A stretch of DNA of 22,795 bases from a virus. Below are positions 264 to 18,905 of the stretch, piece after piece. A model generated the notes under the pieces. That model saw only the letters and a program-made list of their open reading frames with translations. It had not been told where the DNA came from and did not search any database. Within the stretch, counting starts at the first letter, position 1. Each line of letters begins with the position of its first letter. A program made the position numbers and the translations under genes. The stretch covers positions 1 to 22,795 of the IMG/VR virus record IMGVR_UViG_3300025809_000133. The stretch is one strand, 5' to 3'.

Positions 264-3200
264 TTAAAAGTCTGATGCGTCTTTAAACTGCGTTGATTTT
301 TTACTCTTAGCGCGCGTTTCTTTCGCTTTTTCTACACCAGCCGCTTTACGTTTAGCCTTAGCTGCTTCTTTAATAGCTTCACCTTCTTCGTCTTTAACAC
401 CAACGTCCCAGGTTTTCCAGCCTAAGCCCAATGCTATACGCTGCCATGCTTTGTTACGTGTATCGAATGCTTCAGCTACTGACGTAAGCTCGTCAACAAC
501 GCGGTCAAGTGGTAAGTTAATCGATGCTGATAATACATTACCTAGTATAGACCAGTTGGGTCCTAAGTTTAATTTGCCATCCGCTGTAACTGCCCACCCG
601 CGCGCTTCAATCTCATCTCTGTCAAACTTCTTAGTTTGGATAGCGCTGTAAAGTTTACGAGCTTTAGAGCCGATAGGCGGAGATATACCTAGTGCTGCAA
701 GAATCGTGTAGGTATGGTCGGCCATAAATCCTTTTTCTTCTTGCTTCTCGTATTCTTTAATAAGGTTTTTAACCGTAGAGAATACTGCGCCGTACACACC
801 AGAACCTTTAAGTAGCGTATCTAACATGCTGTTAAGTACTCTAGCTATCTTTTGTTCCTCTTTAGCGTTTTTCTTTTCTAATTCAGCATTGCTTAGTGTT
901 TCGTCTTCATCGTCATCAAATCCTGGTAGCATCGCGAATAAAGCACTTTGCAAAGCAGAGAAGATAAAGTTTTGTATCGCACCGTAGTAAGCAATCTTAC
1001 TAACATTCTCTTTCCAGTCCCCGCGTCCATTAGCCAAATCTAAGGCAGCCTTTTTCATTAAACGTGTGTACTGCAAGGGTGTGTTCTGAAACGCGAATAC
1101 GAGGCGTCCTAACGTGCTTCTTTGTACTTGTGACACCATTGATGGGTCTGACGACTGCTGCGCTTCATCAGATTTCTTAGCGAAGTCGATAAACGCTTGC
1201 TCTTCCGCTTGCTTTTGTGATTGCCCTTCTTTAACGTATTTGTTAACACGGTTACGGTAGAACGTAGCACCACCAGTTGCAATAGCCATACTATCCGCAA
1301 TCTGTGTTGGCGTAAAACCAATCTGCAACAGGTATGCTAAGATAGCTTGTGGGCTGTTCTTACTTTTGTTCGCTAAACTAGCAATCTCATCAGAACTTAC
1401 ATCTTGTTTCAGTCCACCGCGACGCTCTTTAAGTTTGTCTGAGTTGAATATCATAACCCAGTCAGCCCAGTATTGCTTTTGATTAGCGAAGGCTGCACCA
1501 GCTTTTAATATGTTGTTATCTGACCAGTTGATAAAGTTAGTGAACGATAGCATCTGTAACAATGCTGAACGACGGTTGAAGAACATAATCGCTCCGGTAG
1601 AACCGTTAATCCAGTTCAACCATGCGTTAACTTGCTTGTTGCCCCCTGCGTTACGGTTGGTACCGTTCTTCATAGAGTACAATGCATCTTCAATAGCATC
1701 ACGGTGTGGCTTACCGTATAGTGCTTCAATCTTATTTAGGTTATCTTCACTAAATATAACGTCTGCATTTCCAATAAACTCTTCCAAATACTTTTTACGA
1801 CCAACCTTCTCTGTCATACTGTTAAGGTCAGACAATAATGTGCCTGCTTGCCAGTAATCGCCAGGTTCCATCCATTGGTCTCTACGAGCAACAACTAACA
1901 TTGCTTCACCGAATTCAACTAACTCAGGAAACGCTTTAATAGCATCGTCAAGAAGCTTAGCGTCTTTCTGTGATAAACCAGGAACGTTAATACCTGCTTT
2001 CTTCCATAAGTAAGCACGAAGCGCTTGATCGTACGTGAAACCACTCTTGTTGATTTCTTTATTAAGTAATCTGTATTGCTGTGGGAAAGCTTTGACTGCT
2101 TGTTTAAAGTCACGCTTAATCTGTTGGCGTATACCATCAATTGCAGCTACACCTTTAGCGTACGGCGTCATAAGCTTTTCCTCAAGCCATTTCATATCAG
2201 CTTCACCTTGCTTGCCTTTACCGGCGAAAGCGTAGTTAACTAAGCCGCGGAAATCTTCAACGTTAGGTGCTACAAATAGTTTGAATTTACCTTTGTTTGC
2301 ACCACGCATCTGCGCTTGTACCTTAGAGAATGTTTTAAATGATTCTACACCGGTTTTGCGTTCAAGTATGTTATTAAATTCATTGCTTAATTCATCTTTA
2401 GTTGCCTTAGAGAATTTAGCTAATTGAACCTTGCTTTTTGCATCTATAGTTTTCAATGCTTCTTTAACAGCTTTTACATTCTTTAATGCATCGTCTGCAA
2501 AGTAAAAATCATTGTAGCCTTGCTCAAATTTCTCTAGCATCCAGTCAGCCTTAGCCTTAGGTGCACCGTTAGCTAAACCTGTTATATTCTCTAAAGGTAT
2601 GTTTAAACCTAAACCTTTTAAGAATTTATGTATCGGTAAAGCTGCATCTTGAGGTCTAGCTGTTAATACAAACATGTCCCGTCTTCCAGGGCTTTCGTTT
2701 ATAAATTTAGCGAGTTCAAACAACGGACCTTTTTTACCATCTACTACCTTGTTGAATTCAGAGAAATCAAATACAGCACCGGCTGCTTCAAGTTCTTCAG
2801 AGCGCTTCGCAAATTCAGTAGCATTAAGCTTACCGGTTTTGCCATCAGGCATTGTGTAAAGAACATTAGAGTTAGACCGTGCTAATGTATCGTCAAAGTC
2901 AAACACTCTAGCTTTTCTAGGTGCAGCCTTTTCGTCAAGTCTTTTTATGTTTGCTTTGGCTGCCGCTAATTCTTTTTGGTTAACGGATTTACTGAATTTG
3001 ATAGAGCTCTCAATGGCAGCGCTTCTTCTCTCTATCATTTCTTTAGCCGGCATACCATCAATAGTGAATACGCTGTTAGCTCTGCTACCTAGTAATAGTA
3101 TACGCTTATCTTTGTACGGATTGTTTTTCCCAAAGAAATCTACAGCATCTAATGCGTCTTTATTCTCCATCCATTGATCGTGAAATCTTAATTCTTCACG

Positions 3201-6200
3201 AAGCTTAGATGAAAACTCAGAGTCACTAATGGTCTCGTCAAATATAAGCTCTAGTATGTTAAAGCTTGTAGTCGCATTGTCAGCTAGGTGCTCTCCTTTT
3301 GGGTGACCAATGGCATCTTTGGTTACTGTAGCGTAAGTTAAGGAGGTAAGCCCTCTAAAACCAGCTTTTAAATTTGTTTGAATTTGCATTAATTCAACAA
3401 TGGTTTCTGGCTTTATTTTACCTTCTTTATATAACGATCGTACAGTCTCTACTATGTGTTGATAAGCTAGCTTATTAGCTTCGCTAGCTGCTGCAATTTC
3501 TTCAGAATACTCAGCAAGTTTTTCTAGCTTTTGAGATACAGGCATTTCTTTATTTAGAATGTTTCTAAATATTTTACCCATAATGCCCATAGAGGAATTA
3601 AATATTCTAATATTTTCAGGCATTAATCCAGCTGGCAAATCCTTAGCCGCACCTACGTTTTCTATGCTATCCTTTAAGCTCTTGTAGTCACCAGGTTTAC
3701 CCGTGTCTTTTTTAACATCAGCGCCGTCTAAAATACGATAGTGAATACCAAATATTTCAGAGCCAATTGCTTTTACAATATCTGAACCTAGTGCTTTAGC
3801 TAAAGCCAGTACATCTTTAGCGTAAGCATCTTTTCGTTCTTTCGGAGATTCTTTACTTAGTGCTTTTTTAGTATTAGCTTTTACACTAGCGGGTATTACC
3901 TTAGATTTTTGAACTAACTGCTGAAAAGCTAACAGCCTCTCGTCTAATATTAATCCAGACTCATTAGCTTCTAATAGCCATTTTCCAACACCTTCTATGT
4001 CCTTATACTCCTCATTGTACGGTTCCATTAATACACCGTTATCGCCGACTACAGTATCAAAACCTTCTTTTTGTACAGTCTTCCAAAGCTCTCTAGCTCT
4101 CTTAACATTATTTTTGTCTGTTAAGTTAAAAGTTTTAGAGAACTTAACATTACCTCGCTCAATATCTCTTTGGGTCTCTACTATATAGTTTTCACGTAGC
4201 TCTACTCCGAGTAAATCTTGGCGCATTTCAAAAGCTTCTCTAATATCACTATTAGGGTCCTGTAGTGCTTCGTTGATAATATCAAATGAAAGCTCCTCTG
4301 CAATAGCTTTAGCTAACGATTCTTTACGACCGCGTATAGGCGCTCCTGTCTCGTCTAAAATGTTAGATAAGTAATCAGCATCAGATAATCTAGTTGATGC
4401 GTTAGGTAGCCTTCTAACTAGCTCTGCGCCTGAAGTGCGACCCGCACTGTCCGTAGAAACACTTTCACGGTCAATTTTCTTACCTTTCCAGTCACTAGTC
4501 CACACGCCGTCTACTTTTTTCTGAATAGCGTTAGGCATAGCCGTCATCAAATACGTGGTAGTCATGTTCTGCAGGATAGCAGCTTTGTTACGTAGTAAGA
4601 ATTTACGGAGCTCCCCGTCTTTCTTACCACCCATTGCTTTCTTTAAGTCAATGTCGGCTTGCTTACCCATGGCCTTACGCAGTTCTGCAATGTAAGGCTT
4701 TACGGTTACGTTTTTAGAAACAGGCGCATCCATGCGTGTTTTCATAACCCTCACAGTGGACTTAACCTTTTCCTTAACGTTGTCTATAACCTCAGCGTCT
4801 AGGATTCTGCGCTCTAGTAAAGTTTTGTATTTAGGCTTATCCTCTTTAACAGCCGCTTCTTCCTGTACCGCCATTCCTTTAGCGGTATCGATGTCTTTCT
4901 TAATACCACCAGTCGCAGCTGACTCAATACCTAATCTAGAAGCTAGGTTGTTTGATCTTAAGAACGCTCTGTTAACAAGGAACTTCTCAATGTCTTGCTT
5001 GCCTTCTTTAAATTCTTCAAATGCTAAAGCTTCAATCTCAGTTCTTAAAGAGTTCTGGAAATCATCACGAGATACGTTATTACGCTGCTCTGGTGCAATA
5101 GGATCGTACAATGCTTTAGTACGATTGGTAACAATCTTACCGATTAAAGGGCTTAGTTGCTCTCTAATCTTAGCTTCTAAGCGTTGTTGTACCGCGTCCG
5201 CTTGTACTTCTACGCCAAATTTCTCTGCTACTTTCTTAGCTTCTTCAATTCTAGCTGCACGCTTAGATAGCATGTCTATAACAGAAGCATCTTGTTCCGG
5301 TGTTAAAGTTTTTGATTCTTTAAAGCTAGCTTCGTCTTCAGGCGGCATCATTCTGCTCGTTGCACCGCTTTCAAACTTACTTATAGCGTGAGACACAAAT
5401 TGCATTGCATCAGAGTAATTGTCTATTTTAAAATAAGGAGCAGCGTCCTCGTTAGCTACCTTAAGTAAACCGTTAAGCATAGACTTAATCTGCCAGACTG
5501 ATTGGTATGAGCTTTTACGCAGTACGCCGGCGGAGGTCAAATCGATGAGCATAGTTAACAGCTCTTCAGAGTCTATCTTCCCTTCGTTATCAGCTTTGTA
5601 GTCATTAACAAGTTGCTGAGCTGCGTTGTAAATATTATCAGGAATCCAACCACCGTCTTTGCCTCTTTCAATTTCGTCTAAAATGCCTTTAACCATACCT
5701 TGCCCAATACCCACTAAACCTTTCTTAGTGACTATACCGGCTGATCGTATTTCTTGATGGCCGAATTCGTGCATTGGTCCATTGGCGGCAAACAATCCAG
5801 CTACGCTCCCTCTTTCTGTTATTGATTTTTCAGAATTTGCTGTAAATACGATAGTCTTCCCGTTTACATAAACAGCATTGCTGCCATCAGAAAGCCCTCG
5901 TTCTATATCGGCTAATTCTGCTTCTGTAAAATCAGCTTTATTTAAGTCGTCTAAGCTATTAGCTTCAAAGTACTTGTCACCGCCTATGCTGCGTGCCAGT
6001 GCTCTTGAATAATTAAATTGCTTAAGCTGTAACACAGCCTCCGCTCCGTTCTGCGCAGATTTAGTTTTTTCAGCTATTATTGTTTCGCTCTTACCTAAAA
6101 GCCCTTCTCTAATAGCTACCTGCTCCGATATAGATTGCTTTATAGCTTCCAGCTCGGTATTAGTAGCGTCAGTTCGTGTTGCTGAACTACCCATTAAATC

Positions 6201-8771
6201 TCCGGCTTCTTGCTGCAGACGGTAGATTTCCATATCCGCGTCTACAATAGCCTGAAGGTCTTCTTGTTCTAAATCGTTAAGCTTAGACAATATGTTAACG
6301 TCTTCACGCAGCAGATCCTTTAGCATGTTATCTTTAGTCTGCTGTAGCTTACGCAACTCTCTCATTTGCTCAGGACCTTTGCCTGATGCGATAATCTCTG
6401 TTATTCTGTCGTTAATACCGTAAATACCCGCTACTTTTTCAGATATAATCTTGTTCTCAGCTTTAGTAGCGAAAGTTTGCTTAACAGTATTAACAAGACC
6501 GTGTCCAGCTGATTTACCGTTAATAACAAAACTAGTAATTGCCACCTGTCTTAAGAATTCAGCATCAATACCCTCCATCCAATGCGTGTTAAACCCTAAA
6601 GATTTATCCACGTAATTGCTGCCTATCTGAGTAAGGCTCTCTTCAACCTCTTCAACGGCCACACCGCGCACGGTACCTTTAACTATACCGGTAAGCGCTG
6701 CTGCCCATCTAGCCTGAGTAGGCTTTAGATATTTTCTAAAATTTCTGTAACCTACAGCTTTACTGTATTGAGTAAACTTTTGGAATTGGTTTATAGAACC
6801 TACTCTTTCTGCTGCAGTAGCTATAAGAGCGTTCATGCTAGCCGCGTATGCTTTCTCTAAGGTAGTTAAACCCAGTAGGTTTTCGTTGTACTCTTGCTCT
6901 TGTTGTAGTAAAGCTAATTTTTCAGGCTGCAATCCTGATGCTTCTAAAGACTCAATTTCCAATGCGATCTGAGCATTTCTTTTTTCAGCTGTTTTAATAC
7001 CTTCCTCGGTCTGCATTAAATAGCCACCGCCTTCTGCCACAGCGAAAGCAACCATTGTTTGTCTAGCCGCTACTTTTTGATATCCCTTAGCTATAACGGA
7101 TTTTTCCGCATTAGTAAGAACTTTTTTGCTTTTAGATATCGTGCTCTTAGTGAGTCTGTTGGCTCTTGCCGCGGGCACAAATAAAGCTGCGAATGTTGGT
7201 ATACCGCTTATAATACCGTTCCATACGTAATCACCCAGCGCGTTTTCTTCTTTAGCTTCTTCGTATGTTCTTTTGTAAGGCAGGTTTTGGCGTCTTTCAG
7301 ATAAACTACCTGCGTAGTCAGACAAGAACACCTCAGCATCGTCCAGCATTTGCAATATATCCGTAGGGTCCGTATTACCTAAAGCTGTAGGTTCGTCGCC
7401 TAGTAATTCTTTTGCACCTTGAACAGTTAACTTACCCAGTGCTGATGCACTGCCTACAAAAAACTCTTCCAACCCAAGCGCTATTGCATTCAAGTCGGAA
7501 TAATTTTTACCTAAGGACTCCATCATTATACTAGTATCTGATAAATCTGTAATCCTTGTGCTTATCTTTTTTTCTTCTTGTAGTAGCCTTTCGCTAGTGT
7601 TTATAATTTTATCATACGTACCTGTTAACCATGCGCTTTCTTCGGATTCAAACAAGTTCCCGTACTCTTCTAATAAACCATTGTAAGAATCTAATGATTT
7701 ATTGTAGTCTTCAATTTTTTGATTAAAATTATCAACAAACTCCCGCGAAGGCGCTGTCGCGAATTTAGGTATCAGCGGCTGCACAGGAAGTGTTTCTTCA
7801 GCTTTTTTTATAGCTGCTGATAGTTCGTCAGCTTTAGCTGCAAAAGCGTTGTTACGCGCCTCCCATTCAGATGTAACAGCGTCTAGTGCTTGTGCTTCTT
7901 TGTTTAACTCTTGGCTTTCTTGTTTTAACTGCTTAAACTTACCTTCTAAAATAGTACCCGGGTCTATATCGCCCATAACACCGCTTTTAGCTTTAACAGC
8001 ACCAGAAGCCATGGGATCGTATTTACCAGCAGCACTAGCAATACTATATTCTAAATTAAACTCTTCATCTCTAGACCCCTCTTTTAAAAGCACTTTCTTT
8101 TCTCCCGGGCTTAAAGCATCTATGAATAAATCAGAAAACCTTTGCTTTTCAGAGTTAACACCTAATGACACTTCGTCTTCTGTAGCCCAAGTAAGGTTAA
8201 AACCTTTTTCTAACTGTTCTTTTGTGAAAGTTAACGGTGTATTCGGGTCTTTTGGGTCAAGGCCTAGGTTTTCTAATAGTGCAATGATCTCCGGGTCATC
8301 TGCTAAAAGCGGATTAGTACCCACAGTAGGCATATCAGTTGCTAATCTTTGCGATGAAGGTACAAGTCCTTTTTCATCTTCTATAGCACTTTTGTAAGAA
8401 GCAGGCACAAAAACCCCGTCCATTTCAGTGTAACCAAAATGCACTGCGCTTATCGCAGCTTTTGAAGAACGAGGCGTAATTTCCTTAAGTTTCTTATTGT
8501 ACTTTTGTGGTAAAGTAGCAGGCTCCTTGCTATCTTCAATAGCTAACTCAACCCCTGGTAACCCCAATGAAATAGCTTCCGCACTGGAAACCCCAGCGGG
8601 TAGCGGTTGCGGTCCTGCCGGTGGGGTTCCCTTCGGACCGTTGGTCTTTCCCTCTTCTTCGATGTATTCCCAACCGTTTTGCTCTGCTAAAGTTTTAACG
8701 TCGGAACCAAACTCTAAAGCGAAATCTTCGGCTTCTTGGTTAGATAGTTTTTTGTCGCCTACAACGTACAT
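264..8771 (-). CDS. Giant polyvalent virion protein with zincin metallopeptidase and HAD phosphohydrolase domains
   Basis: This is a 2835-residue protein filling over a third of the window. Residues 1-110 are a proline/glycine-rich leader, followed by long helical, glutamate/lysine-rich stretches. Hydrophobic segments lie near 517-537 and 2595-2620. At 1001-1005 it has HEFGH, a zincin HExxH zinc motif, with IDSEELL near 1066-1072 as a candidate third ligand. A separate HAD-type domain covers roughly 1950-2130: DFDDT (1958-1962, nucleophile aspartate and general acid/base), LTAR (2036-2039) and a DD pair (2093-2094). A block around 1347-1520 containing WKGKKIDRE and RTSGAEL looks conserved, but its function is unknown to me. 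The C-terminal third carries FAFQNTPLQYTRLM near 2558-2571, which resembles the end regions of large T7-gp16-like or polyvalent phage proteins. Its place after the tail genes suggests packaging in the virion and ejection into the host. The domain calls are strong; the ejection role is inferred. The ATG follows a 21-base A/T-rich gap. Confidence 0.8.
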   Translation of the reverse strand: MYVVGDKKLSNQEAEDFALEFGSDVKTLAEQNGWEYIEEEGKTNGPKGTPPAGPQPLPAGVSSAEAISLGLPGVELAIEDSKEPATLPQKYNKKLKEITPRSSKAAISAVHFGYTEMDGVFVPASYKSAIEDEKGLVPSSQRLATDMPTVGTNPLLADDPEIIALLENLGLDPKDPNTPLTFTKEQLEKGFNLTWATEDEVSLGVNSEKQRFSDLFIDALSPGEKKVLLKEGSRDEEFNLEYSIASAAGKYDPMASGAVKAKSGVMGDIDPGTILEGKFKQLKQESQELNKEAQALDAVTSEWEARNNAFAAKADELSAAIKKAEETLPVQPLIPKFATAPSREFVDNFNQKIEDYNKSLDSYNGLLEEYGNLFESEESAWLTGTYDKIINTSERLLQEEKKISTRITDLSDTSIMMESLGKNYSDLNAIALGLEEFFVGSASALGKLTVQGAKELLGDEPTALGNTDPTDILQMLDDAEVFLSDYAGSLSERRQNLPYKRTYEEAKEENALGDYVWNGIISGIPTFAALFVPAARANRLTKSTISKSKKVLTNAEKSVIAKGYQKVAARQTMVAFAVAEGGGYLMQTEEGIKTAEKRNAQIALEIESLEASGLQPEKLALLQQEQEYNENLLGLTTLEKAYAASMNALIATAAERVGSINQFQKFTQYSKAVGYRNFRKYLKPTQARWAAALTGIVKGTVRGVAVEEVEESLTQIGSNYVDKSLGFNTHWMEGIDAEFLRQVAITSFVINGKSAGHGLVNTVKQTFATKAENKIISEKVAGIYGINDRITEIIASGKGPEQMRELRKLQQTKDNMLKDLLREDVNILSKLNDLEQEDLQAIVDADMEIYRLQQEAGDLMGSSATRTDATNTELEAIKQSISEQVAIREGLLGKSETIIAEKTKSAQNGAEAVLQLKQFNYSRALARSIGGDKYFEANSLDDLNKADFTEAELADIERGLSDGSNAVYVNGKTIVFTANSEKSITERGSVAGLFAANGPMHEFGHQEIRSAGIVTKKGLVGIGQGMVKGILDEIERGKDGGWIPDNIYNAAQQLVNDYKADNEGKIDSEELLTMLIDLTSAGVLRKSSYQSVWQIKSMLNGLLKVANEDAAPYFKIDNYSDAMQFVSHAISKFESGATSRMMPPEDEASFKESKTLTPEQDASVIDMLSKRAARIEEAKKVAEKFGVEVQADAVQQRLEAKIREQLSPLIGKIVTNRTKALYDPIAPEQRNNVSRDDFQNSLRTEIEALAFEEFKEGKQDIEKFLVNRAFLRSNNLASRLGIESAATGGIKKDIDTAKGMAVQEEAAVKEDKPKYKTLLERRILDAEVIDNVKEKVKSTVRVMKTRMDAPVSKNVTVKPYIAELRKAMGKQADIDLKKAMGGKKDGELRKFLLRNKAAILQNMTTTYLMTAMPNAIQKKVDGVWTSDWKGKKIDRESVSTDSAGRTSGAELVRRLPNASTRLSDADYLSNILDETGAPIRGRKESLAKAIAEELSFDIINEALQDPNSDIREAFEMRQDLLGVELRENYIVETQRDIERGNVKFSKTFNLTDKNNVKRARELWKTVQKEGFDTVVGDNGVLMEPYNEEYKDIEGVGKWLLEANESGLILDERLLAFQQLVQKSKVIPASVKANTKKALSKESPKERKDAYAKDVLALAKALGSDIVKAIGSEIFGIHYRILDGADVKKDTGKPGDYKSLKDSIENVGAAKDLPAGLMPENIRIFNSSMGIMGKIFRNILNKEMPVSQKLEKLAEYSEEIAAASEANKLAYQHIVETVRSLYKEGKIKPETIVELMQIQTNLKAGFRGLTSLTYATVTKDAIGHPKGEHLADNATTSFNILELIFDETISDSEFSSKLREELRFHDQWMENKDALDAVDFFGKNNPYKDKRILLLGSRANSVFTIDGMPAKEMIERRSAAIESSIKFSKSVNQKELAAAKANIKRLDEKAAPRKARVFDFDDTLARSNSNVLYTMPDGKTGKLNATEFAKRSEELEAAGAVFDFSEFNKVVDGKKGPLFELAKFINESPGRRDMFVLTARPQDAALPIHKFLKGLGLNIPLENITGLANGAPKAKADWMLEKFEQGYNDFYFADDALKNVKAVKEALKTIDAKSKVQLAKFSKATKDELSNEFNNILERKTGVESFKTFSKVQAQMRGANKGKFKLFVAPNVEDFRGLVNYAFAGKGKQGEADMKWLEEKLMTPYAKGVAAIDGIRQQIKRDFKQAVKAFPQQYRLLNKEINKSGFTYDQALRAYLWKKAGINVPGLSQKDAKLLDDAIKAFPELVEFGEAMLVVARRDQWMEPGDYWQAGTLLSDLNSMTEKVGRKKYLEEFIGNADVIFSEDNLNKIEALYGKPHRDAIEDALYSMKNGTNRNAGGNKQVNAWLNWINGSTGAIMFFNRRSALLQMLSFTNFINWSDNNILKAGAAFANQKQYWADWVMIFNSDKLKERRGGLKQDVSSDEIASLANKSKNSPQAILAYLLQIGFTPTQIADSMAIATGGATFYRNRVNKYVKEGQSQKQAEEQAFIDFAKKSDEAQQSSDPSMVSQVQRSTLGRLVFAFQNTPLQYTRLMKKAALDLANGRGDWKENVSKIAYYGAIQNFIFSALQSALFAMLPGFDDDEDETLSNAELEKKNAKEEQKIARVLNSMLDTLLKGSGVYGAVFSTVKNLIKEYEKQEEKGFMADHTYTILAALGISPPIGSKARKLYSAIQTKKFDRDEIEARGWAVTADGKLNLGPNWSILGNVLSASINLPLDRVVDELTSVAEAFDTRNKAWQRIALGLGWKTWDVGVKDEEGEAIKEAAKAKRKAAGVEKAKETRAKSKKSTQFKDASDF

Positions 8772-8792: not shown

Positions 8793-10013
8793 TTATTTGT
8801 AGAATATAGTAGGATTAGCAACCATAAGGTCTTCTAAAGTGTTGTAAAGCGCTTTATCCATAGATTTAGAGTTTAAGTACTTCCATTTATTCTCTTTAGT
8901 ATCCCACTTAACTTTAATTTGGTCCGGGTTGTTTTTATCTCCAAATTTAAACGTTTCGGTAATGTCAGCTGGTGGGCGGGCGCTAGGACCTGCTGATAAT
9001 ATTTCTTTCTCTAAGGCTTGCATATCACTTACTGTTGCCGCGAGCTGAGGGCGAACAACATTGGTTTGCGTAGCGCTTGCCGCTGGTGAATCTTTCTTAG
9101 CTACTCCGTATATAGCGTTAACAGTGGCTTCTACCGCTTGGTCAATTGCTACTTGTGGGTTTTCCCTGTCTAACACTATATTTGCGAACCCTGTATTTAA
9201 TGATTTAAAATATTGCTGTGAAAGCAATACCTCCAACCTATCAACACCCTCTTCACCGCTGAAATACCCTTCAGCTGTGCTTCTGATATTTTCTTTTTTA
9301 GTTGTAGCTTTATTAAGTTCAGTTGCGGTCATTTTAGAAACTTTATCGGTCTCAGAACCAGCCCACTCCATAAAGCCCTTGCCTATATCAGTAGTATATG
9401 GCAACGATATGTCGACTAATCTTGTACCGTCGTCAAACACAATTTCGCCTTCTTTTACGCTCCAGTTAGAAGTCATTAACCGGTTAGCGTTTTCTATGTT
9501 TTTAATGTTACCCTCTACAGCAGCGAGGTTGCCGCTATTCTTAAGAGCCGCGTATTCTTTTCTAGCTTCTTGAAGCAAAGACAATTGGTTGTGAAAAGAA
9601 ACAGCATTGCTTTCAGCCTCTTCACCCATAAATCTAGCTTGCTTTATAGCCTCGGGATCGCTAACTGAGTATCCTTTCTCTAGTAAAGTTTTGCCTTCGC
9701 TTAAAGCGCCCTTTTGTGCGGTAAGGTATTCAGTAGCATGCTGCATATCTTCGGTTGTTAAACCACCGGTTTCGCCCTTAATAACAGAATTAACGCCTTT
9801 GACAACGTATTCTCGCATGTACTTGTCGCCCTCTTTTAAAATGTCTTTTGCTCTTTTTTCCGCTGCCTGTTGTTGTTTAAGCATGCGGTTCATTTCAGCT
9901 TGGTTACGAGCCATAGCTTTATCATAACCTGCTCCAAACGCAGCGCCCATATTGACACCGCTTTGAGCTTCAGCTAGTTGTCTAGCACCTTGTATTAATG
10001 TAGCGTCTGCCAT
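8793..10013 (-). CDS. Probable internal virion/ejection protein, 406 residues
   Basis: I do not recognise a named family. The protein starts MADATLIQGARQLAEAQ. The first 80 residues are strongly helical, with a basic, glutamine-rich run (MLKQQQAAEKRAKDILKE) that should form a coiled coil. The middle continues as mixed helices. A linker rich in serine and proline near residue 340 (SAGPSARPPADI) leads to a small C-terminal segment with alternating hydrophobic residues (IKVKWDTKENKWKYL) that looks like a short beta unit. There is no signal peptide or clear transmembrane helix. Its ATG lies one base after the stop of the 205-residue gene, so the two are almost certainly translationally linked. 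Placed between a small alanine/glutamine-rich protein and a giant one, it occupies the position of the second of three ejected core proteins, as gp15 does in T7-like phages. That parallel is positional only. It could instead be a tail or cargo component. Confidence 0.6.
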   Translation of the reverse strand: MADATLIQGARQLAEAQSGVNMGAAFGAGYDKAMARNQAEMNRMLKQQQAAEKRAKDILKEGDKYMREYVVKGVNSVIKGETGGLTTEDMQHATEYLTAQKGALSEGKTLLEKGYSVSDPEAIKQARFMGEEAESNAVSFHNQLSLLQEARKEYAALKNSGNLAAVEGNIKNIENANRLMTSNWSVKEGEIVFDDGTRLVDISLPYTTDIGKGFMEWAGSETDKVSKMTATELNKATTKKENIRSTAEGYFSGEEGVDRLEVLLSQQYFKSLNTGFANIVLDRENPQVAIDQAVEATVNAIYGVAKKDSPAASATQTNVVRPQLAATVSDMQALEKEILSAGPSARPPADITETFKFGDKNNPDQIKVKWDTKENKWKYLNSKSMDKALYNTLEDLMVANPTIFYK

Positions 10014-10014
10014 G

Positions 10015-10632
10015 TTAACTGTATTTACTTGGGTCAGCTATTATTGGCGCTACACCGCCGGCTATCTCACCTAGCGCTCCTGCTCTGGCTGCTTGTGCCA
10101 TATTTATAGACTGGTACGCGCCTGCTAATTCAGCTTGCGACATACCCAGCTGAGTACCAAGCATATTGCCTTCCATCTGTCTAGATGTAAGTTCTCCCTG
10201 TCTTTCCATTTGCTCAATAGACATTGCCCCGCGAGCTTTCATCCCTTGTATATTGGATTCTTGTAAACCTAACTGAGCAGCTATTTGCTGTGACCCTTGA
10301 GCCTGTTGGTTTGCTAGCATTTGAGAAAACGCTGCAATACCAGAGCTACCGGCTGAAGCTCTACCTGACCCCATTATATCAGCTAGATTCTGTGATTGGG
10401 ATTGCTGCTGAAATTGTGCAGCTGCTTGATTTACAGTAAGGTCCTCATACGGGTTTTCCATATTAGCGAACACATTACTAAAATCTTGAGAGGTATAGTC
10501 AGCCATTGCTGTGTCGTAAGCACTCTGTGCTGTATCCCTACGCTGTAGTCTTTTTTGCCCACCTATAAAGGACGCTCCAAATTCTGCCGCAGGACCCGCA
10601 GCCGCGGCTAGCACTGCTGTTAATAGTGACAT
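10015..10632 (-). CDS. Small alanine/glutamine-rich internal virion protein, 205 residues (T7 gp14-like by position and composition)
   Basis: The protein opens with a hydrophobic, alanine-rich segment (LLTAVLAAAAGPAAEFGASF, residues 3-22) that could insert in a membrane or pack against other core proteins. After a short basic stretch (GGQKRLQRRD) come glutamine-rich helices (QAAAQFQQQSQSQNLADIMG) and a long run rich in A, Q, M, G and S with several short glycine-containing breaks. Length and composition match the smallest ejected protein of short-tailed phages, such as T7 gp14 (about 196 residues). Those proteins leave the head with the DNA and help form a channel across the envelope. The gene follows the large tail protein after 31 A/T-rich bases and is coupled to the 406-residue gene. 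Composition bias makes homology uncertain, so the role is an inference. Confidence 0.6.
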   Translation of the reverse strand: MSLLTAVLAAAAGPAAEFGASFIGGQKRLQRRDTAQSAYDTAMADYTSQDFSNVFANMENPYEDLTVNQAAAQFQQQSQSQNLADIMGSGRASAGSSGIAAFSQMLANQQAQGSQQIAAQLGLQESNIQGMKARGAMSIEQMERQGELTSRQMEGNMLGTQLGMSQAELAGAYQSINMAQAARAGALGEIAGGVAPIIADPSKYS

Positions 10633-10663
10633 ATTAAATTAGTTTATAAATTATTATTACGTA

Positions 10664-13600
10664 TTATTCGCTGCTTATAAAGGCTTCAGAGTTAACAGCA
10701 AAGAGTTCCTTCTTGCTACTATTGGTATTTGTAAGTACTATATTTGCGTAGTAACCTACAATCCCTGATTTGTTTATAACACCATCTTTAGCAAACAACA
10801 CAAAGTCTCCAATTACTGGAGGGTTAATCGTTATAGCTGGCGTTGTGACTGTGATTGTCTTGTTCAGTCTATCAATAACTGCACATTCACCCATTTGGTT
10901 TAATGTGCCGTCGTGGTAGTATACAATATCACCAACCTGCAAAGATACATTGATAGCACCAACCATAGTTAAGGTATACGATGTACCGTTGTGTGGTGGA
11001 TTAGTAGCTAGATTAGACAACCCTTGCACAGAGAACTCTGATGTATCGATGTTACTTAAGGTGGTAGCTTCTCCTTTAATAAAGTTAAAGTACAAACCTT
11101 CTTTCTGTTTCCAAGTATCTATTACTCCTTCTTGGCTGTTTGTTGTAATCGATGCTGTCCAACCGTCATCACCTTCGTAAGATAGGGTCTTAAAGTTTTT
11201 AATGCTCGATGGTCCGTCATTGATAATAGTTGTGACAGTTGTGTCGTTTTGTACGCCATAGAAGTTCGCTCTGTTGGTATCATCTGAATGCTCGTACAAT
11301 TCCCCACCGTTGAATGTGTAGTACTCAGTGTTTAAAGAAATTGCAAACTCAGGGGCGTATGTTAAACGAGTTGTCCAACCGTCAACACTTTCCTGGAAAG
11401 ATAATTGTTTGTTATCAATACGTACATTGTATGTACCTGTATCTTCATCATACGAGCCAATTAGAGGCTGCGCGGCGGCTTTTAATTCCTGATTAAAGTA
11501 GTAAGACATGTTCTTGTCAGAGATGACTGTAATGCCGTCATTTGACAATCTAATAACTGCTCCTCTAGCTTTATCAGTGTAGTAAGCTCTAAACCCGAAA
11601 GACGCAAAAGACTCTGGATTTTTAGAGATGCCAAACTCACCAGCGAAAGGTATGGTCTGTCCTAATACGTTTCTTGACGCTGTGATATTAGGATTACCAT
11701 CCGCTTCAAATAAAGCATCTTTATCAGCGAGTATACGTAAAGACTTGTCTTCACATAGAGTGACCAAGTTAGTGTCTCTAGCATGTAACTTCTGAATTGA
11801 ACCGTAAGATGGGTCAATGTCTTTAGTAATATCCTCAGCTATTAAAAATTGGTTAGTATTGTTAATACCAGACGTAGAGTTAAATATACCACTGAATATT
11901 AAACCGTTAGCTCTTCTCTCCTCTCTATATGGCTCTTCTATAGTAGAACTTACTCTTACACCCTTGCCTATTGTCGGTGCGTTAAAGTCGTCTCTGATAC
12001 GATCTGATTCTACACCGTTGCCGAACGAGTAGCAGTTTGACCAGCTAAGAGTTTGCACTGCGTTAATGTTAGATTTGTCTATTGGCTCAGTAGCTTCGTA
12101 GTATAAATCTAGGTCCGCTAGCTCATCAGGTTCTGTTTCAAAAATAGCAGGGTTAGAAGAAGAAATGCTTGTTGACTCCCCCTTAAATCTGGTCTTCAAA
12201 ACGGTTATATCAAAAGGTTTTTCTATAGCTGGGTCTTTATCAGTATAAGGCCTATCTAAAGTTATTGTTTTTGTCTGGCTTTCTCCAGTTCCAGGGGATA
12301 CCCTAGTGTCTGTTTGCGTAACAACATCAATTATTTTGTAGGGCTTTTCGCTTTTATCGCCGTTTATAAAAACAAATTCTAAATATGTTCCGCCCGCTAG
12401 TTTGTCCCAAAATATTTTTTCTTGTGAAGTAAACCAAGGCGTTGCACTAGTATCCGCTGCTGAAATGTAAAAAGTATCGCTGTTTAAAGTTAACCCGTCT
12501 CCTGGGTTTGATGCAACGTGTATGTCGTCCCACGCAAAGCTAGGGCTGGTAACGACATTTGGCATTTGATCGTAAAGCACCGCTTCAGTTTTGTCCGTAA
12601 CTAAACTAGGCGATGTGTCTGCAAAAGCTTCTTTTATATTTTGCTCTAAAGAGCCATTACTCTTAATCTTAGTAAAAAATCTACCTACAAAATCAGGGGA
12701 CTGATTTATTTCGTTATGATAAAGCACAGCTGTTATTCTTTCACCCGTTGCTAATTGGGTTAACCATAAGTCGCTGCTTTTAATACCTTCCACTAAAGTA
12801 CAACTAAAGTAAGAATATAAAACAGCAGAAATTTCTACTTCATCGCCAGTGGGTCCACCACTAACTATTTCGTAAATATTAGAACCACCTGTAGCGTTTT
12901 CGCTAAAAAATTGTATAAAACATTTTTTATTGAACCCTTCGAAAAAGTTTTCGTTTCTATCTTTTGTTGGCGCTAAAAAATTAATTTGTTCGCTACCTAT
13001 TACAAAAGGGTCTGTAATAGGAGAACCGCCCCTAAATACTTTTACCCTACCTACTACTGTTTTTAAGTATTTTATATAATCAGGAGCCTCGTTCTCTATA
13101 GATAACACTTTGTACTTGTTATTTATAGTAACAGGGTTGTCGTTGTCGTGTTCTTTCTTTAAAGTTAGGTATTGCCCTTCTTTAATCTTATTTCTCTCTG
13201 ATGAAGGAAAAGATAACCAAACACCACCGTCTTCAGCATCGTAATATCTATCCAATGCGATATTATAGTACGCTGCACTAGGGTCTTTTACGTAGTATTT
13301 AAACTTGTCTACCCACGATGGCGGAGTAAAGGTATTTAGCTTAGCGCGCAAGGAATTTACCTTAGGGGAGTTTCTACCGTCCAAAGTAATAGAACCTGTA
13401 TTAGAAGTGAATACTGGCGTTTCGCGGCCGTAGTCGTCTATAAAGCTTACCCCAATTTGGTAGTCTCTGTTTGTTTTTACCGAGGCTAAACCTCTCTTTA
13501 CATTAGGGTGCGTAGCGTTTGCTTGGCTAGCCACGATATCAATGCTACTGTTCTCTATCGTGTAGTTCTGCTCATAGTTAGCATATATCACGCGATTACC

Positions 13601-14911
13601 TATAACTTCTTGTGCTTTAGCTTTTTTAGGCACCGCGTCAAATAGCCTAAGTAATTGTACGCTTTCAATAACTCTACCTAAAGATTTAGAAGTTAATGTT
13701 AAAGAAAGTACAGGCTGAATAGGTTCTGAAAAATCGTATTTAAAAGAATGAATAAGGTATACGTTGTTAGAGTCTGAGCCCTTGTACAACACCTCTACCT
13801 CGTCAACATCTTTTGGTGTTGTTTGAAAACCAGATATGTCTATTTTCCTAATAACACTTTCCATTCCAATGTTATTACCGTCGCGGCTAAGGTACTCGAA
13901 ATCACCGGGTACAAAAGCAGCATTGGAAAAAGTTGCGTAAGGAGAGTACTCGCCGTTGGAGTATTTATATCTGTATGAAAATCTAGGGAAATCGTTTTTA
14001 AATATAGGTTCGCCTTCTACTAATAAAAGTTCCCAGTCCAACGCTAAGTTGGGCACATCAGCGGATATGCTAGTTATAAGGATGTCTACATCACTAGCAC
14101 TAGTATAGGTATCAATCTCCCCAGTAACTTCAAACTCATCTCTAGAGTTATCTTCGTTTGTTATATACGCGGTCATTGAAAACGTAGTGTCCGCTATTCC
14201 ACTCCACGATATAGCTTGGTCAAGACTAATGTTTACTATATTGCCAGTTACTTCACCAAAGAAATTATGCGTAACACCTACAGGGTCAATACCTGTACCT
14301 GGCCCGCTATATATCGACGGCGACGCCACAACTGTGAGTACTTCTTGTGGTGCTTTCTTAATAACAGTTACGTCCGAACCAATAAAGTCTCTGCCGTAAA
14401 CCTGCGTGTGCACGCTAATTATATTACTCCCCTGGTCAGATCCAGCTTTAAACGTATCGATGTTTATAACACGTGGCTCGTTTAAGTCATCGGTCCAGAA
14501 CAGCTGGTTCTCTAATATATTAACACCAGTAATTAGATTACTAGTGCTAAAGTTTAATACGTTGTTTATATCTACCAATACTGGAGCGACAATGCCTGTA
14601 GCTTGGTCAAACTCTAATATAGCGTCGGCTTCATCGCTAGTTAAGAACCAATACAGTTTATTGTTGGAAGTATCTCTAACGGCACCGATGGTTGTTGCAT
14701 TCGTTAGATCGAAGTTAGGAGCCCAGTCTCCTGTACCTTCGAAGTTCTTTAATACATTGCCTAATACATTTTCAACAGCCCCAACATCAGAACCCTCAGA
14801 TGTGCTCACCTGGATATTTTGACCATCGCGATATTCACCTTTAGGTACAAGGCGTTCATCGAGATCCTTGTTCATTCTACCGCGAACAAAGTTTTGTGTT
14901 AACTTAGGCAT
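10664..14911 (-). CDS. Large tail protein, crAss-like 'stabilisation'/muzzle type, 1415 residues
   Basis: The N-terminus carries the family signature FVRGRMNKDLDERLVPKGEY, followed by RDGQNIQVSTSEGSDVGAVE and NVLGN. I associate this with the large 'tail stabilisation' proteins of crAss-like and marine podoviruses. A second recognisable block lies near residues 1090-1145: GISKNPESFASFGFRAYYT, then RGAVIRLSNDGITVIS. The rest is predominantly beta-strand, with many T/S/D/N turns and no transmembrane helix. In crAss-like virions the equivalent protein forms the distal part of the short tail, the muzzle, attached through ring proteins to the portal. The gene lies three bases after the 305-residue ring-type gene and before the likely ejection proteins, which fits tail assembly order. 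The long middle region could carry receptor-contacting surfaces, but no specific adhesin domain is visible. Confidence is high for a tail structural protein and moderate for the muzzle assignment. Confidence 0.75.
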   Translation of the reverse strand: MPKLTQNFVRGRMNKDLDERLVPKGEYRDGQNIQVSTSEGSDVGAVENVLGNVLKNFEGTGDWAPNFDLTNATTIGAVRDTSNNKLYWFLTSDEADAILEFDQATGIVAPVLVDINNVLNFSTSNLITGVNILENQLFWTDDLNEPRVINIDTFKAGSDQGSNIISVHTQVYGRDFIGSDVTVIKKAPQEVLTVVASPSIYSGPGTGIDPVGVTHNFFGEVTGNIVNISLDQAISWSGIADTTFSMTAYITNEDNSRDEFEVTGEIDTYTSASDVDILITSISADVPNLALDWELLLVEGEPIFKNDFPRFSYRYKYSNGEYSPYATFSNAAFVPGDFEYLSRDGNNIGMESVIRKIDISGFQTTPKDVDEVEVLYKGSDSNNVYLIHSFKYDFSEPIQPVLSLTLTSKSLGRVIESVQLLRLFDAVPKKAKAQEVIGNRVIYANYEQNYTIENSSIDIVASQANATHPNVKRGLASVKTNRDYQIGVSFIDDYGRETPVFTSNTGSITLDGRNSPKVNSLRAKLNTFTPPSWVDKFKYYVKDPSAAYYNIALDRYYDAEDGGVWLSFPSSERNKIKEGQYLTLKKEHDNDNPVTINNKYKVLSIENEAPDYIKYLKTVVGRVKVFRGGSPITDPFVIGSEQINFLAPTKDRNENFFEGFNKKCFIQFFSENATGGSNIYEIVSGGPTGDEVEISAVLYSYFSCTLVEGIKSSDLWLTQLATGERITAVLYHNEINQSPDFVGRFFTKIKSNGSLEQNIKEAFADTSPSLVTDKTEAVLYDQMPNVVTSPSFAWDDIHVASNPGDGLTLNSDTFYISAADTSATPWFTSQEKIFWDKLAGGTYLEFVFINGDKSEKPYKIIDVVTQTDTRVSPGTGESQTKTITLDRPYTDKDPAIEKPFDITVLKTRFKGESTSISSSNPAIFETEPDELADLDLYYEATEPIDKSNINAVQTLSWSNCYSFGNGVESDRIRDDFNAPTIGKGVRVSSTIEEPYREERRANGLIFSGIFNSTSGINNTNQFLIAEDITKDIDPSYGSIQKLHARDTNLVTLCEDKSLRILADKDALFEADGNPNITASRNVLGQTIPFAGEFGISKNPESFASFGFRAYYTDKARGAVIRLSNDGITVISDKNMSYYFNQELKAAAQPLIGSYDEDTGTYNVRIDNKQLSFQESVDGWTTRLTYAPEFAISLNTEYYTFNGGELYEHSDDTNRANFYGVQNDTTVTTIINDGPSSIKNFKTLSYEGDDGWTASITTNSQEGVIDTWKQKEGLYFNFIKGEATTLSNIDTSEFSVQGLSNLATNPPHNGTSYTLTMVGAINVSLQVGDIVYYHDGTLNQMGECAVIDRLNKTITVTTPAITINPPVIGDFVLFAKDGVINKSGIVGYYANIVLTNTNSSKKELFAVNSEAFISSE

Positions 14912-14914
14912 ATA

Positions 14915-15832
14915 TTAGTGCTTAATCCATTTAGATTGATTTCTCATAACTTGTGCTAACTCCGCTATTTTCAGGTTAGACAAACGTAGCTTAGCATTAC
15001 GCTTTGCCGCTGCCATTTCTTTTTTAAAGCGGGCAACTTGGTATTCTGGAGTGTTTGCTCTTGTAGCTAGAACAGCGTGAGCAATGTATTTGTAGATAGC
15101 TTCTTCAGCTAGTTTATGTACTCGCATTTCTGCGTCTGTGCCTAACCCGTCGCTGATGTACTTGAGTGTTACAATCTGTTCAACTAAGTTTGAGCTAAAG
15201 TGTACAATGCCTTTTAGTTTGTCAATGTAGAAAACACCGTTAGACTGCGCTTGCTCAGGGTTGATACCATAGCGTCCACCGTAGCGGTATAAGTTAAACA
15301 ACTCACTATCGGTTAGATTGTTTGGGTTATTAGAATTGTTTACTTGCGTTGTATCGCCTGATTTAAAGCGTGACAATGTAATAGACTCGTCAGATTCAAT
15401 AATCTCACCAGTGTTATCAAACGTGTATTCAAAATTTGAATCCTGCGTTATAGCCATTGGGTTACTTGTATCTCTAGTAGGATACAGTATTCTTTCAATA
15501 CCCGCGCTATCAGTGTAAGAAAACTTTACGTAGTTAACATAATCCTGCGGTAGGATCATATTTAGCGTAGGGCCTATTTCTATCTCCTGTGCTTTCTCAG
15601 AAGGTAATGTATCAAAGCTAAACTCTTGAATAGCGCGCTTTGCATGGAACATTACATCTGTTCGCTTAATTTTACTGATGATTTTATCTTCACCAACATA
15701 AGCAATTATAAAATTAGTTATAATGTCATCGAGGCTGGTGAATTGATAGTCACCGTAGTTTTCGTCACCGCTGTTCCAAACGCCGTCAGCGCCTTCGTAG
15801 TACAGCTCATTAGTTTGATTTATTAGCCCCAT
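14915..15832 (-). CDS. Ring/tail-adaptor type structural protein, 305 residues
   Basis: The N-terminus is acidic and tyrosine-rich (MGLINQTNELYYEGADG), then helical blocks such as TSLDDIITNFIIAYVGED and TDVMFHAKRAIQEFSFDTL lead into a beta-rich centre (EIGPTLNMILPQDYVNYVKF). After a variable middle, a helix-rich C-terminus (RVHKLAEEAIYKYIAHAVLA, then VARFKKEMAAAKRNAKLRLS) ends in a basic tail. Helical ends around a central beta domain with an 'LPQDYVNY' turn is the layout I associate with the ring or head-to-tail adaptor proteins of crAss-like phages, which stack below the portal. The gene starts right after the TAATAA region ending the 229-residue gene and is followed by the muzzle-type gene after three bases. 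It could equally be the tail-tube (gp11/gp4-like) component. The structural role is well supported by context; the exact ring is not. Confidence 0.62.
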   Translation of the reverse strand: MGLINQTNELYYEGADGVWNSGDENYGDYQFTSLDDIITNFIIAYVGEDKIISKIKRTDVMFHAKRAIQEFSFDTLPSEKAQEIEIGPTLNMILPQDYVNYVKFSYTDSAGIERILYPTRDTSNPMAITQDSNFEYTFDNTGEIIESDESITLSRFKSGDTTQVNNSNNPNNLTDSELFNLYRYGGRYGINPEQAQSNGVFYIDKLKGIVHFSSNLVEQIVTLKYISDGLGTDAEMRVHKLAEEAIYKYIAHAVLATRANTPEYQVARFKKEMAAAKRNAKLRLSNLKIAELAQVMRNQSKWIKH

Positions 15833-15835
15833 TTA

Positions 15836-16525
15836 TTATGCTTTTTCTTGTTGTATCTTTTGAGATTCCATCTGGTTACCAATTTGGTACACGCTTGGGT
15901 CTTTGATTGCTATACCTGCGAGCTCTAGAATCTTGTATACAAGTTCCGTTTCTTCAGATGGATGCAGTTCGAAGTCTACTGAATTACCAGCATTGTTAAC
16001 TAAACTACCGTTTATAAGTGTACCTGCCCATTCTACCGTTGCGGGTCTCTTAATATAGTTACATGTTACACCAGTTTCTAACGGTGCAGCGCCGTGCACT
16101 TTATAGCCAGTTGTATTAGCTATAAAAACAGGACGTTCGTTACTAGGTTTTGTTAACGGTGATTTATTAATGTATAAGAACTCATTTTGGTTAATGCGTT
16201 CTACTTCGTTATTATTATAAATAATAGTACCGATCCTGTACAAATTAGCAGGAGCGGTCCATAATCCTGAGCCAGCATGCGTCATAGCAGCTGTGACCTC
16301 GAAGATGTTTATTTTTTCGTTAAGGAGGTTGAGCATATCAGAGTACTCGGTATCGTTACCGTGAATACGACCGAACTGGTTGATGTCGTAAAAGTATTGC
16401 TCGAAGATATCTAGCTGCGCTTGATTGGCAAATAGATTGAACTCTTGAGGCGTAACATATCCTCTTTGTTCTTTATTGAGTATGGCTAATACCCGTTGAT
16501 AAACAGTGTCTACGCTTACGCTCAT
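15836..16525 (-). CDS. Ring/tail-collar type structural protein, 229 residues
   Basis: The protein begins MSVSVDTVYQRVLAILNKEQ, followed by RGYVTPQEFNLFANQAQLDI and FEQYFYDINQF. I recall this N-terminal block (VY..VL...NKEQRGY.TP.EFN.FA..AQ) from small structural proteins encoded between capsid and tail genes in crAss-like and marine flavophage genomes. The middle is beta-rich (FEVTAAMTHAGSGLWTAPAN, then LYRIGTIIYNNNEVERIN). The C-terminal part has an acidic-to-helical region (FELHPSEETELVYKILELAG) and a glutamine-rich end. That C-terminal block, with a conserved HPSEETELVYKIL-like helix, is typical of head-completion or ring subunits that bind the portal. It precedes the 305-residue gene by three bases and follows a 58-base spacer with a stem-loop. 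No enzymatic motif is visible. The likely role is connecting portal and tail. Confidence 0.62.
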   Translation of the reverse strand: MSVSVDTVYQRVLAILNKEQRGYVTPQEFNLFANQAQLDIFEQYFYDINQFGRIHGNDTEYSDMLNLLNEKINIFEVTAAMTHAGSGLWTAPANLYRIGTIIYNNNEVERINQNEFLYINKSPLTKPSNERPVFIANTTGYKVHGAAPLETGVTCNYIKRPATVEWAGTLINGSLVNNAGNSVDFELHPSEETELVYKILELAGIAIKDPSVYQIGNQMESQKIQQEKA

Positions 16526-17510: not shown

Positions 17511-18905
17511 TTAAACTGTTTTCAACAATACGAAGTTGTTAGCAGCTTGAACACAAAGTGCACGCTCAGACAAGAAGTGAACGTTCATTGCATCTTCGTC
17601 ACTAGTGTAGTTGCCGCCAACTGAACCAGTAACCCAAGACTTCATGCGACGATCATCAACCTCGTTAGCGCGGTAACGCACGTGCAAGAATGGACGAGCA
17701 ATGTTCTTACCTAGAGTTTCATCGTAAACTGTAGAAGTACCAGCAGGAACAATTGTACCTTCGATGTCTCCAATAAGACCACGAGTAGTTGCATCATTCA
17801 AGTATTTCCAGTCAGTTTTGTAGAAGTCGTAAGAACCACGACGGAATCCAGAGAATCCTAAGTTCAACGCCATATCCTCAGAGTTGTCGAATACCCCGTA
17901 AGAAGTACCGCCGGTTCCGTAAGAATTTTGAGCAGCAAGCATGTTGTCAATCTGTAAAGACTTAGCGCGGTTCAAGAACATCATGTTCTCTTCAATTGCA
18001 CCTTGCTTATCAAGTTGAGCCAACAATGCATCGAACTCATCAAGACCGTTAGCAGCGTCAAAGACTGTGCCAGTGTAAACCATACCGCGTGTTTCGATAG
18101 CTTCGAACATACCTTCAGTACCTTCTACAGTAGTAGCACCAGCTCCACCTTTCTTCTCAGCTTCAACCATTGCCATTTCCAAGTAGTCTTCGAAGCGTAG
18201 ACGAGACTCGTGCTCAGACTTCAAGTACCATAAGTAACCAGAAGTACCAGCTTCAGAAGTAACTTCAATCCAACCAATTTGAGCTACGTCAGAACCAGCA
18301 ACGCTGTACTTATCACGTAGGATGATTGGCTTGTTAGAGTAGCGCTCGAAAGAAGCGTCACGAGAAAGCCCGATGTTTTCAGAACCTTTAGCGTACTCAG
18401 AACCGAATACGAAAGCAGAAAGACCTGTAGCAGCAAGAGCAGACAAATCAGCAGCGCCGTAAACCTGTACTTTAACAACTGCACCAACTGCAGCGGTAGA
18501 AACACGTACTTTAGCAACGTTGTTAGCAGCGTCAGCTACAACCAATGTCATACCTACAGCCAACAAAGCAGCTTCTGCAGCATCACCGAAAGTTAAAGAA
18601 ACCTCTGTAGCTGTAGCAGTCTGAGAGCTAGCGACAGATTTGAAAGCCAAGTGCAAACGACCTTGTTCTGTCCAAATAACTTGGTCAGAAGCCATAGGCA
18701 TTTCTGCACTAACCATACGCAAGAAGCCGCCTACAGTACGCTTACCGTAACGCTCAACTTCTTTTTCGTAGATCTCAGGGAGATACTGTTGAGACCACTG
18801 CTTGAAAGCTGGGTCTGTAAAATTAATGTAATTTGATGCGTCCGGTGTTTTAGTAGGACGCGGAGTTAGAGGTGCTGGATACGCACCACCTGAAAAAGTT
18901 CCCAT
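17511..18905 (-). CDS. Major capsid protein, crAss-like HK97-fold type
   Basis: The 464-residue protein carries a long recognisable block near the N-terminus: YLPEIYEKEVERYGKRTVGG (41-60), then FLRMVSAEMPMASDQVIWTE (61-80) and QGRLHLAF. I know this FLRMV.AEMPMASDQVIW.EQGRLH pattern from capsid proteins of crAss-like phages. Residues about 90-175 are a small-residue-rich, strand-forming insert (A, V, G, T), which may be an added surface domain. Residues 230-255 (SEHESRLRFEDYLEMAMVEA) fit the long spine-type helix of the fold, and the C-terminal part contains the P/A-domain-like strands (RPFLHVRYRANEVDDRRMKS). The gene sits between the probable scaffold and the first hairpin, as expected. The leader upstream of the ATG is A-rich, which suits strong initiation in Bacteroidota. 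Codons look biased toward GGT, CGT and AAC, as expected for the most abundant product, though I did not count them. Confidence 0.92.
   Translation of the reverse strand: MGTFSGGAYPAPLTPRPTKTPDASNYINFTDPAFKQWSQQYLPEIYEKEVERYGKRTVGGFLRMVSAEMPMASDQVIWTEQGRLHLAFKSVASSQTATATEVSLTFGDAAEAALLAVGMTLVVADAANNVAKVRVSTAAVGAVVKVQVYGAADLSALAATGLSAFVFGSEYAKGSENIGLSRDASFERYSNKPIILRDKYSVAGSDVAQIGWIEVTSEAGTSGYLWYLKSEHESRLRFEDYLEMAMVEAEKKGGAGATTVEGTEGMFEAIETRGMVYTGTVFDAANGLDEFDALLAQLDKQGAIEENMMFLNRAKSLQIDNMLAAQNSYGTGGTSYGVFDNSEDMALNLGFSGFRRGSYDFYKTDWKYLNDATTRGLIGDIEGTIVPAGTSTVYDETLGKNIARPFLHVRYRANEVDDRRMKSWVTGSVGGNYTSDEDAMNVHFLSERALCVQAANNFVLLKTV

Follow-up and report, generated by a model that had tools for sequence, protein, structure and literature searches.

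Metallopeptidase (MPTase) domains of polyvalent proteins carry the HExxH motif on one helix and a glutamate on a later helix, and 12 MPTase clades were described in the 2017 polyvalent set, with partial coverage in Pfam (Iyer et al. 2017, PMC5512222). In the same paper autoproteolysis of polyvalent proteins was proposed, P1 DdrB was reported to be processed, and the N4 virion RNA polymerase, in which an HExxH domain is also present, was described as packaged uncut; its main text names neither a phosphatase nor a haloacid-dehalogenase domain. Self-cutting of polyvalent proteins has long been suspected, and the literature searched gave neither a cleavage signal nor any description of a motif at their domain junctions. 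In crAss001 the virion module ends with genes for large virion cargo proteins, gp45-gp50, whose ejection through a tail was proposed (PMC10172136).

The window analyzed here is the whole stretch of 22,795 nucleotides of DNA of a marine bacterial virus, taken from the IMG/VR record IMGVR_UViG_3300025809_000133. The last gene of its minus-strand virion module encodes a giant protein (Table 1). An earlier note on this DNA had described the gene as a single frame of 2835 residues with the motifs HEFGH (residues 1001-1005), DFDDT (1958-1962), LTAR (2036-2039) and DD (2093-2094), and both the frame and the motif positions are exact. The hydrophobic segments reported in the same place were confirmed for one stretch, which marginally passes a 19-residue hydropathy test, while the others fail it; the remainder of the protein, described as helical, is largely so in the two regions that were modeled. 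The combination of a metallopeptidase and a HAD phosphohydrolase in one giant, at the position of the ejected proteins in a podovirus-type virion module, is supported. The pair is, however, shared well beyond this phage, as the standard layout across a large family.

Table 1. Positions of the annotated features in the window (residue numbers refer to the giant protein).
Feature	Position	Strand	Basis or remark
Portal protein	20120..22543	minus	phrog_6547, E 3e-164
Probable major capsid protein	17511..18905	minus	phrog_13704; Calle_1 homologue annotated structural/major capsid protein
Further virion genes (229, 305, 1415, 205, 406 aa), capsid-to-giant interval	8793..16525	minus	gene order as in phi18:3, phi38:1, elemo
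Giant virion-module protein gene	264..8771	minus	2835 aa, 313.8 kDa predicted; one uninterrupted 2835-codon frame
N-terminal region, residues 1-870, probable virion/ejection part	6162..8771	minus	homology to phi18:3 gp123, phi38:1 gp101, elemo phages
Marginal hydrophobic segment, residues 516-534	7170..7226	minus	mean hydropathy 1.41
Zincin-like metallopeptidase domain, residues ~909-1080	5532..6047	minus	AlphaFold model pLDDT 82; polyvalent MPTase fold description
HEFGH zinc/catalytic motif, residues 1001-1005	5757..5771	minus	H, E, H invariant in 74 sequences
E1070, proposed third zinc ligand on later helix	5562..5564	minus	invariant in 74 sequences; helix in model
Junction motif 1, VKFSKT (1542-1547)	4131..4148	minus	kept in L005 as VKFSKS
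Junction motif 2, IKFSKS (1924-1929), N-terminal side of HAD	2985..3002	minus	
HAD phosphohydrolase domain, residues 1947-2119	2415..2933	minus	motif conservation, model, PHROG matches
Junction motif 3, AKFSKA (2118-2123), HAD/C-terminal domain linker	2403..2420	minus	
Conserved helical C-terminal domain, residues 2130-2835	267..2384	minus	43-55% identity across relatives; BFVD fold matches

The portal protein gave 87 matches and the capsid protein 85 (E<=1e-5), every one of them to a flavophage-type podovirus, namely Flavobacterium elemo phages and Cellulophaga, Tenacibaculum and Maribacter phages. Judged by these sequences, the lineage is Pervagoviridae/Pachyviridae/Elemovirus-like. The assignment to a likely crAss type, made in the earlier note, had to be abandoned, and membership in Crassvirales was rejected on sequence, since all portal and capsid relatives at that threshold are podoviruses of the flavophage type. 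In the interval between the portal and capsid genes (18929-20086) an acidic protein of 385 residues is encoded, with a scaffold-like position and composition.

Relatives of the giant were collected in two steps. The first IMG/VR scan gave 18, and a second scan of viral contigs with the C-terminal alignment gave 179 matching stretches, of which 80 were kept; the family is thus large, with this number of stretches in one viral-contig scan. The comparison set consists of 79 distinct full-length giants from marine viral contigs, with a mean length of 2670 residues. The contigs are mostly incomplete, and the same portal family was found in each of 20 longer ones from giant-bearing relatives. A tblastn search with the whole giant against 50,697 phage records returned zero matches, so that at tblastn sensitivity the half with the HAD and C-terminal domains is carried by no phage among those records. 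The family of giants is real and well conserved, and its members are virion proteins of the polyvalent type.

Exactly one HExxH motif is present in 75 of the 79 full-length giants, against 0.005 expected per shuffled protein, and the sole invariant columns in the peptidase alignment (74 sequences) are H1001, E1002, H1005 and E1070. Otherwise the peptidases are highly divergent, with 11-32% identity to that of the window. The predicted structure comprises an N-terminal helix (909-933), three strands (934-937, 966-969 and 972-976), the HExxH helix (998-1010) and a later helix (1068-1080) with E1070; in the model, these are the elements of the zincin core of the MPTases as defined by Iyer et al. 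(2017). The domain can be described, from its alignment and model, as a minimal gluzincin-type metallopeptidase, because HExxH and E1070 are invariant and the modeled layout is that of the published polyvalent MPTases. A fold search of the PDB with the 301-residue peptidase model gave nothing significant, and the peptidase and HAD profiles found no useful match among PDB sequences. In Pfam, the giant and the peptidase alignment had only weak, unrelated matches, and the described polyvalent domains were absent; with 12 MPTase clades partially covered by Pfam, the missing match limits the assignment to a clade and not the general kind of the domain. At the aligned site, four giants (L006, L011, L020 and L022, about two lineages) have HDxxH, with the catalytic Glu replaced by Asp. 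The same four are also without clear upstream junction motifs, a possible link that rests on about two lineages and is given no weight here.

The residues of the four HAD motifs (DxD, T/S, K and DD) are conserved without exception: the nucleophile D1958, the acid D1960, T2037 of motif II, K2074 of motif III and D2093 and D2094 of motif IV are each found in 67 of 67 sequences. The HAD model matched human phosphoserine phosphatase and other HADs with a Foldseek probability of 1.00 and a weak E-value of 0.065, the latter owing to a query length of 896 residues. Structure prediction, proposed in the earlier note as a check, placed the HAD motifs within a HAD fold and HExxH within the published MPTase layout. 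The profile of PHROG 415 ('polynucleotide kinase'), which we take to be the T4 Pnkp-type HAD phosphatase, matched the HAD weakly in 10 of 16 members (best E-value 1.5e-6). Several relatives carry a P-loop kinase of the zeta-toxin/AAA_33 type inside the HAD, splitting the domain after its first motif (residues 1449-1827 in L015, 1558-1717 in L085, 1880-2033 in L097 and 1683-1843 in L099); the window giant is without the kinase. It is plausible from these sequence matches that the HAD is a nucleic-acid-end or nucleotide phosphatase, because of the weak PHROG kinase link and the P-loop kinases inserted in the HADs of relatives.

The N-terminal region was matched by profile to phi18:3 gp123 (E 2e-33), phi38:1 gp101 (4e-44) and proteins of elemo phages (3e-40). 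The homology with the N-terminal region of the long giants covers the first ~570 residues of gp123, whose gene has the same position and which is annotated as structural with the record note 'experimental MS/MS proteomics'. Because of this homology to an MS/MS-annotated protein in the same position, a virion/ejection role is probable for the N-terminal part, and the remainder would be cargo varying among the lineages. Two further proteins share this region. One (L001:741-12320, MW202828) is a homologue of the N-terminal part, 3859 residues long, with two HEFGH motifs (1615 and 2500) and without FSKS, annotated as 'reticulocyte binding/rhoptry protein'. The other, of Maribacter phage Panino (L002:6229-11718), is a protein of 1829 residues in the position of the giant with the N-terminal virion region in common (E 5e-14); its annotation, 'tRNA methyltransferase', may be doubtful. 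At the other end, the modeled fold of the C-terminal domain resembles the C-terminal parts of proteins annotated in BFVD as large polyvalent or ART-PolyVal proteins.

The modules of the giants are separated by a short repeated peptide. FSKS/KFSK is the over-represented exact 4-mer that recurs within single giants, and its strict form [VI]xFS[KR][SA] was seen 68 times in the giants against 1.3 expected (51-fold), while 341 further ORFs on these contigs hold 4 copies with 0.8 expected. The motif was first noticed in part of the giants and then held in the remaining 62, with 40 copies against 1.1 expected. It is not universal, as 36 of the 79 giants have no strict copy. In the window giant, FSK2120-2122 (residues 181-183 of the model) lies in the linker joining the HAD to the C-terminal domain, where pLDDT is below 50. 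When giants are aligned with one another by BLAST, the alignments tend to end at the motif: with the HAD and C-terminal borders left out, the ends within 15 residues of a site come to 8.5, against 2.5 expected and a maximum of 6.1 in 1000 random draws. In the nearest relative of the window giant (L005), the HAD is absent exactly between two FSK copies, which are 24 residues apart. A mobile module of ~410-530 residues that starts with IKFSKSHR precedes the HAD in two giants (L009 and L096) and follows it in two others (L019 and L085). In L019 (residues 1878-2291) and its A6 relatives, the start IKFSKSHR is invariant and a WCL motif is conserved when the FS-type members are aligned; Pfam gave no confident match for this module.

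In a sister clade, FSK at the C-terminal junction is replaced by xLAS[KET]. The nine proteins of the LAS type have LAS[KETRN] upstream 10 times against 1.3 expected, with FSKS at 1 site, whereas in the 73 proteins of the FS type FSKS occurs 58 times (1.3 expected) and LAS 9 times (11 expected). The exchange also concerns the mobile module. Its copies in the FS-type proteins L019/L085 share 61-72% identity with those in L118/L120/L121, which are of the LAS type, yet the first junction is IKFSKS in the former and G[VI]LAS in the latter. Between the same two sets of proteins the C-terminal domains are merely 42-47% identical, and the peptidases have no BLAST match to one another. The LAS group is separate in both the peptidase and the C-terminal trees, and common descent thus accounts for part of the co-variation of the motif. 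Since the junction of a module takes on the motif used by the protein that receives it, a common reader is implied, and we infer that a conserved peptide at the domain borders is read by such a factor.

The clustering of alignment breaks at the motif would also be expected if the repeats were DNA recombination seams for module swapping and the peptide itself had no role. The serine of the motif is encoded by both codon families in about equal numbers (AGY 45, TCN 38), with K and R mixed at the next position, which argues for selection on the peptide and not for a DNA repeat, and LAS replaces the motif around a homologous module in the sister clade. A seam at the DNA level is largely refuted by this codon use and junction recoding, and we regard it as highly improbable.

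Another explanation is that the metallopeptidase acts after entry as an effector against host defence or regulatory proteins, alongside the HAD, with no cutting in cis, and that the junctions are inert linkers. Host proteins were proposed as targets of polyvalent MPTases (PMC5512222), and the divergence of the peptidases is what would be expected of arms-race enzymes. However, neither the joint recoding of junctions when modules move between clades nor the enrichment in copy number is expected of inert linkers, and this explanation appears improbable.

The junction peptide could, on the other hand, be read and stay uncut, as a docking or packaging signal: FSKS and LAS tags would bind the same partner (for example the C-terminal domain, the portal or an inner virion protein) and order the modules for threading through the tail. 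A short, exposed, multi-copy and clade-switching motif would result from any common reader, and the N4 virion RNA polymerase provides an example of packaging without cleavage. However, some modules are without the motif, no partner site was identified, and cutting is the simpler role in a chain that also contains a peptidase whose catalytic residues are invariant. We consider a docking signal rather unlikely, if the strongest of the alternatives.

The reading that we prefer, with a probability of roughly 0.55, is that the giant is a packaged modular polyvalent protein, in which the junctions are recognition signals most likely cut by its own peptidase or by a co-inherited phage factor. The N-terminal part common to the flavophage lineage would hold the giant in the virion and probably carry it out via the tail; it would be followed by the zincin-like metallopeptidase, by cargo that includes a HAD with a complete catalytic set, and by the helical C-terminal domain. 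The short exposed peptide between the modules ([VI]xFS[KR][SA], or xLAS[KET] in the sister clade) would be the signal at which the giant is cut, freeing the modules in the virion or in the host. The simplest reader of the junctions would be a protease, and one is present in the chain. Cuts after FSK in the window giant would give fragments of ~170, 42.7, 21.5 (the HAD) and 79.7 kDa, and the substrates of the HAD may be phosphorylated nucleic-acid ends or nucleotides. The cutting into domains suggested in the earlier note thus gains the evidence of a repeated junction peptide, from which we infer the cleavage itself. No S78 prohead protease was found in the 20 contigs, in a search that detected its positive control; the positive control of the S77 search went undetected, and with contigs that are mostly incomplete another protease may be missed. 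More tentatively, at somewhat short of an even chance, the family may follow an RNA-virus-like polyprotein strategy in the virion of a dsDNA phage, with clade-specific cleavage signals that co-evolve with the peptidase and with recoded modules released as effectors.

A repeated, clade-switching junction peptide together with an intact metallopeptidase allows cut sites to be predicted exactly, along with the sizes of the fragments, and makes the hypothesis of self-processing directly testable. The peptide also offers a means of parsing domains in unannotated giant phage proteins. If the more tentative polyprotein reading is true, a newly acquired module is set free as an effector of its own after its junction has been recoded. 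The giants may be a natural system in which several proteins are delivered to bacteria from one chain.

In comparison with known systems, phi18:3 gp123 and phi38:1 gp101 share with the giant the gene position and the homologous N-terminal ~600 residues, but they are without HExxH, the HAD, the junction motif and the C-terminal domain. The crAss001 proteins gp45-gp50 are, like the window giant, large proteins from the end of the virion module, but no sequence link to them was found. For the HAD, the likeness to PHROG 415 is a weak profile match, and a kinase is present only in some relatives, as the P-loop insertion. The polyvalent MPTase proteins, such as P1 DdrB and N4 vRNAP, are giant multidomain phage proteins with the same MPTase layout as the window giant. 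They combine several distinct effector domains per chain, here the peptidase and the HAD, with further modules in the relatives; the window giant differs from them in having no Pfam polyvalent domain by sequence, and the likeness of its C-terminal domain is at the fold level. Polyvalent proteins bearing an MPTase were already known, and what is new here is that the modules are bounded by a multi-copy, clade-specific peptide.
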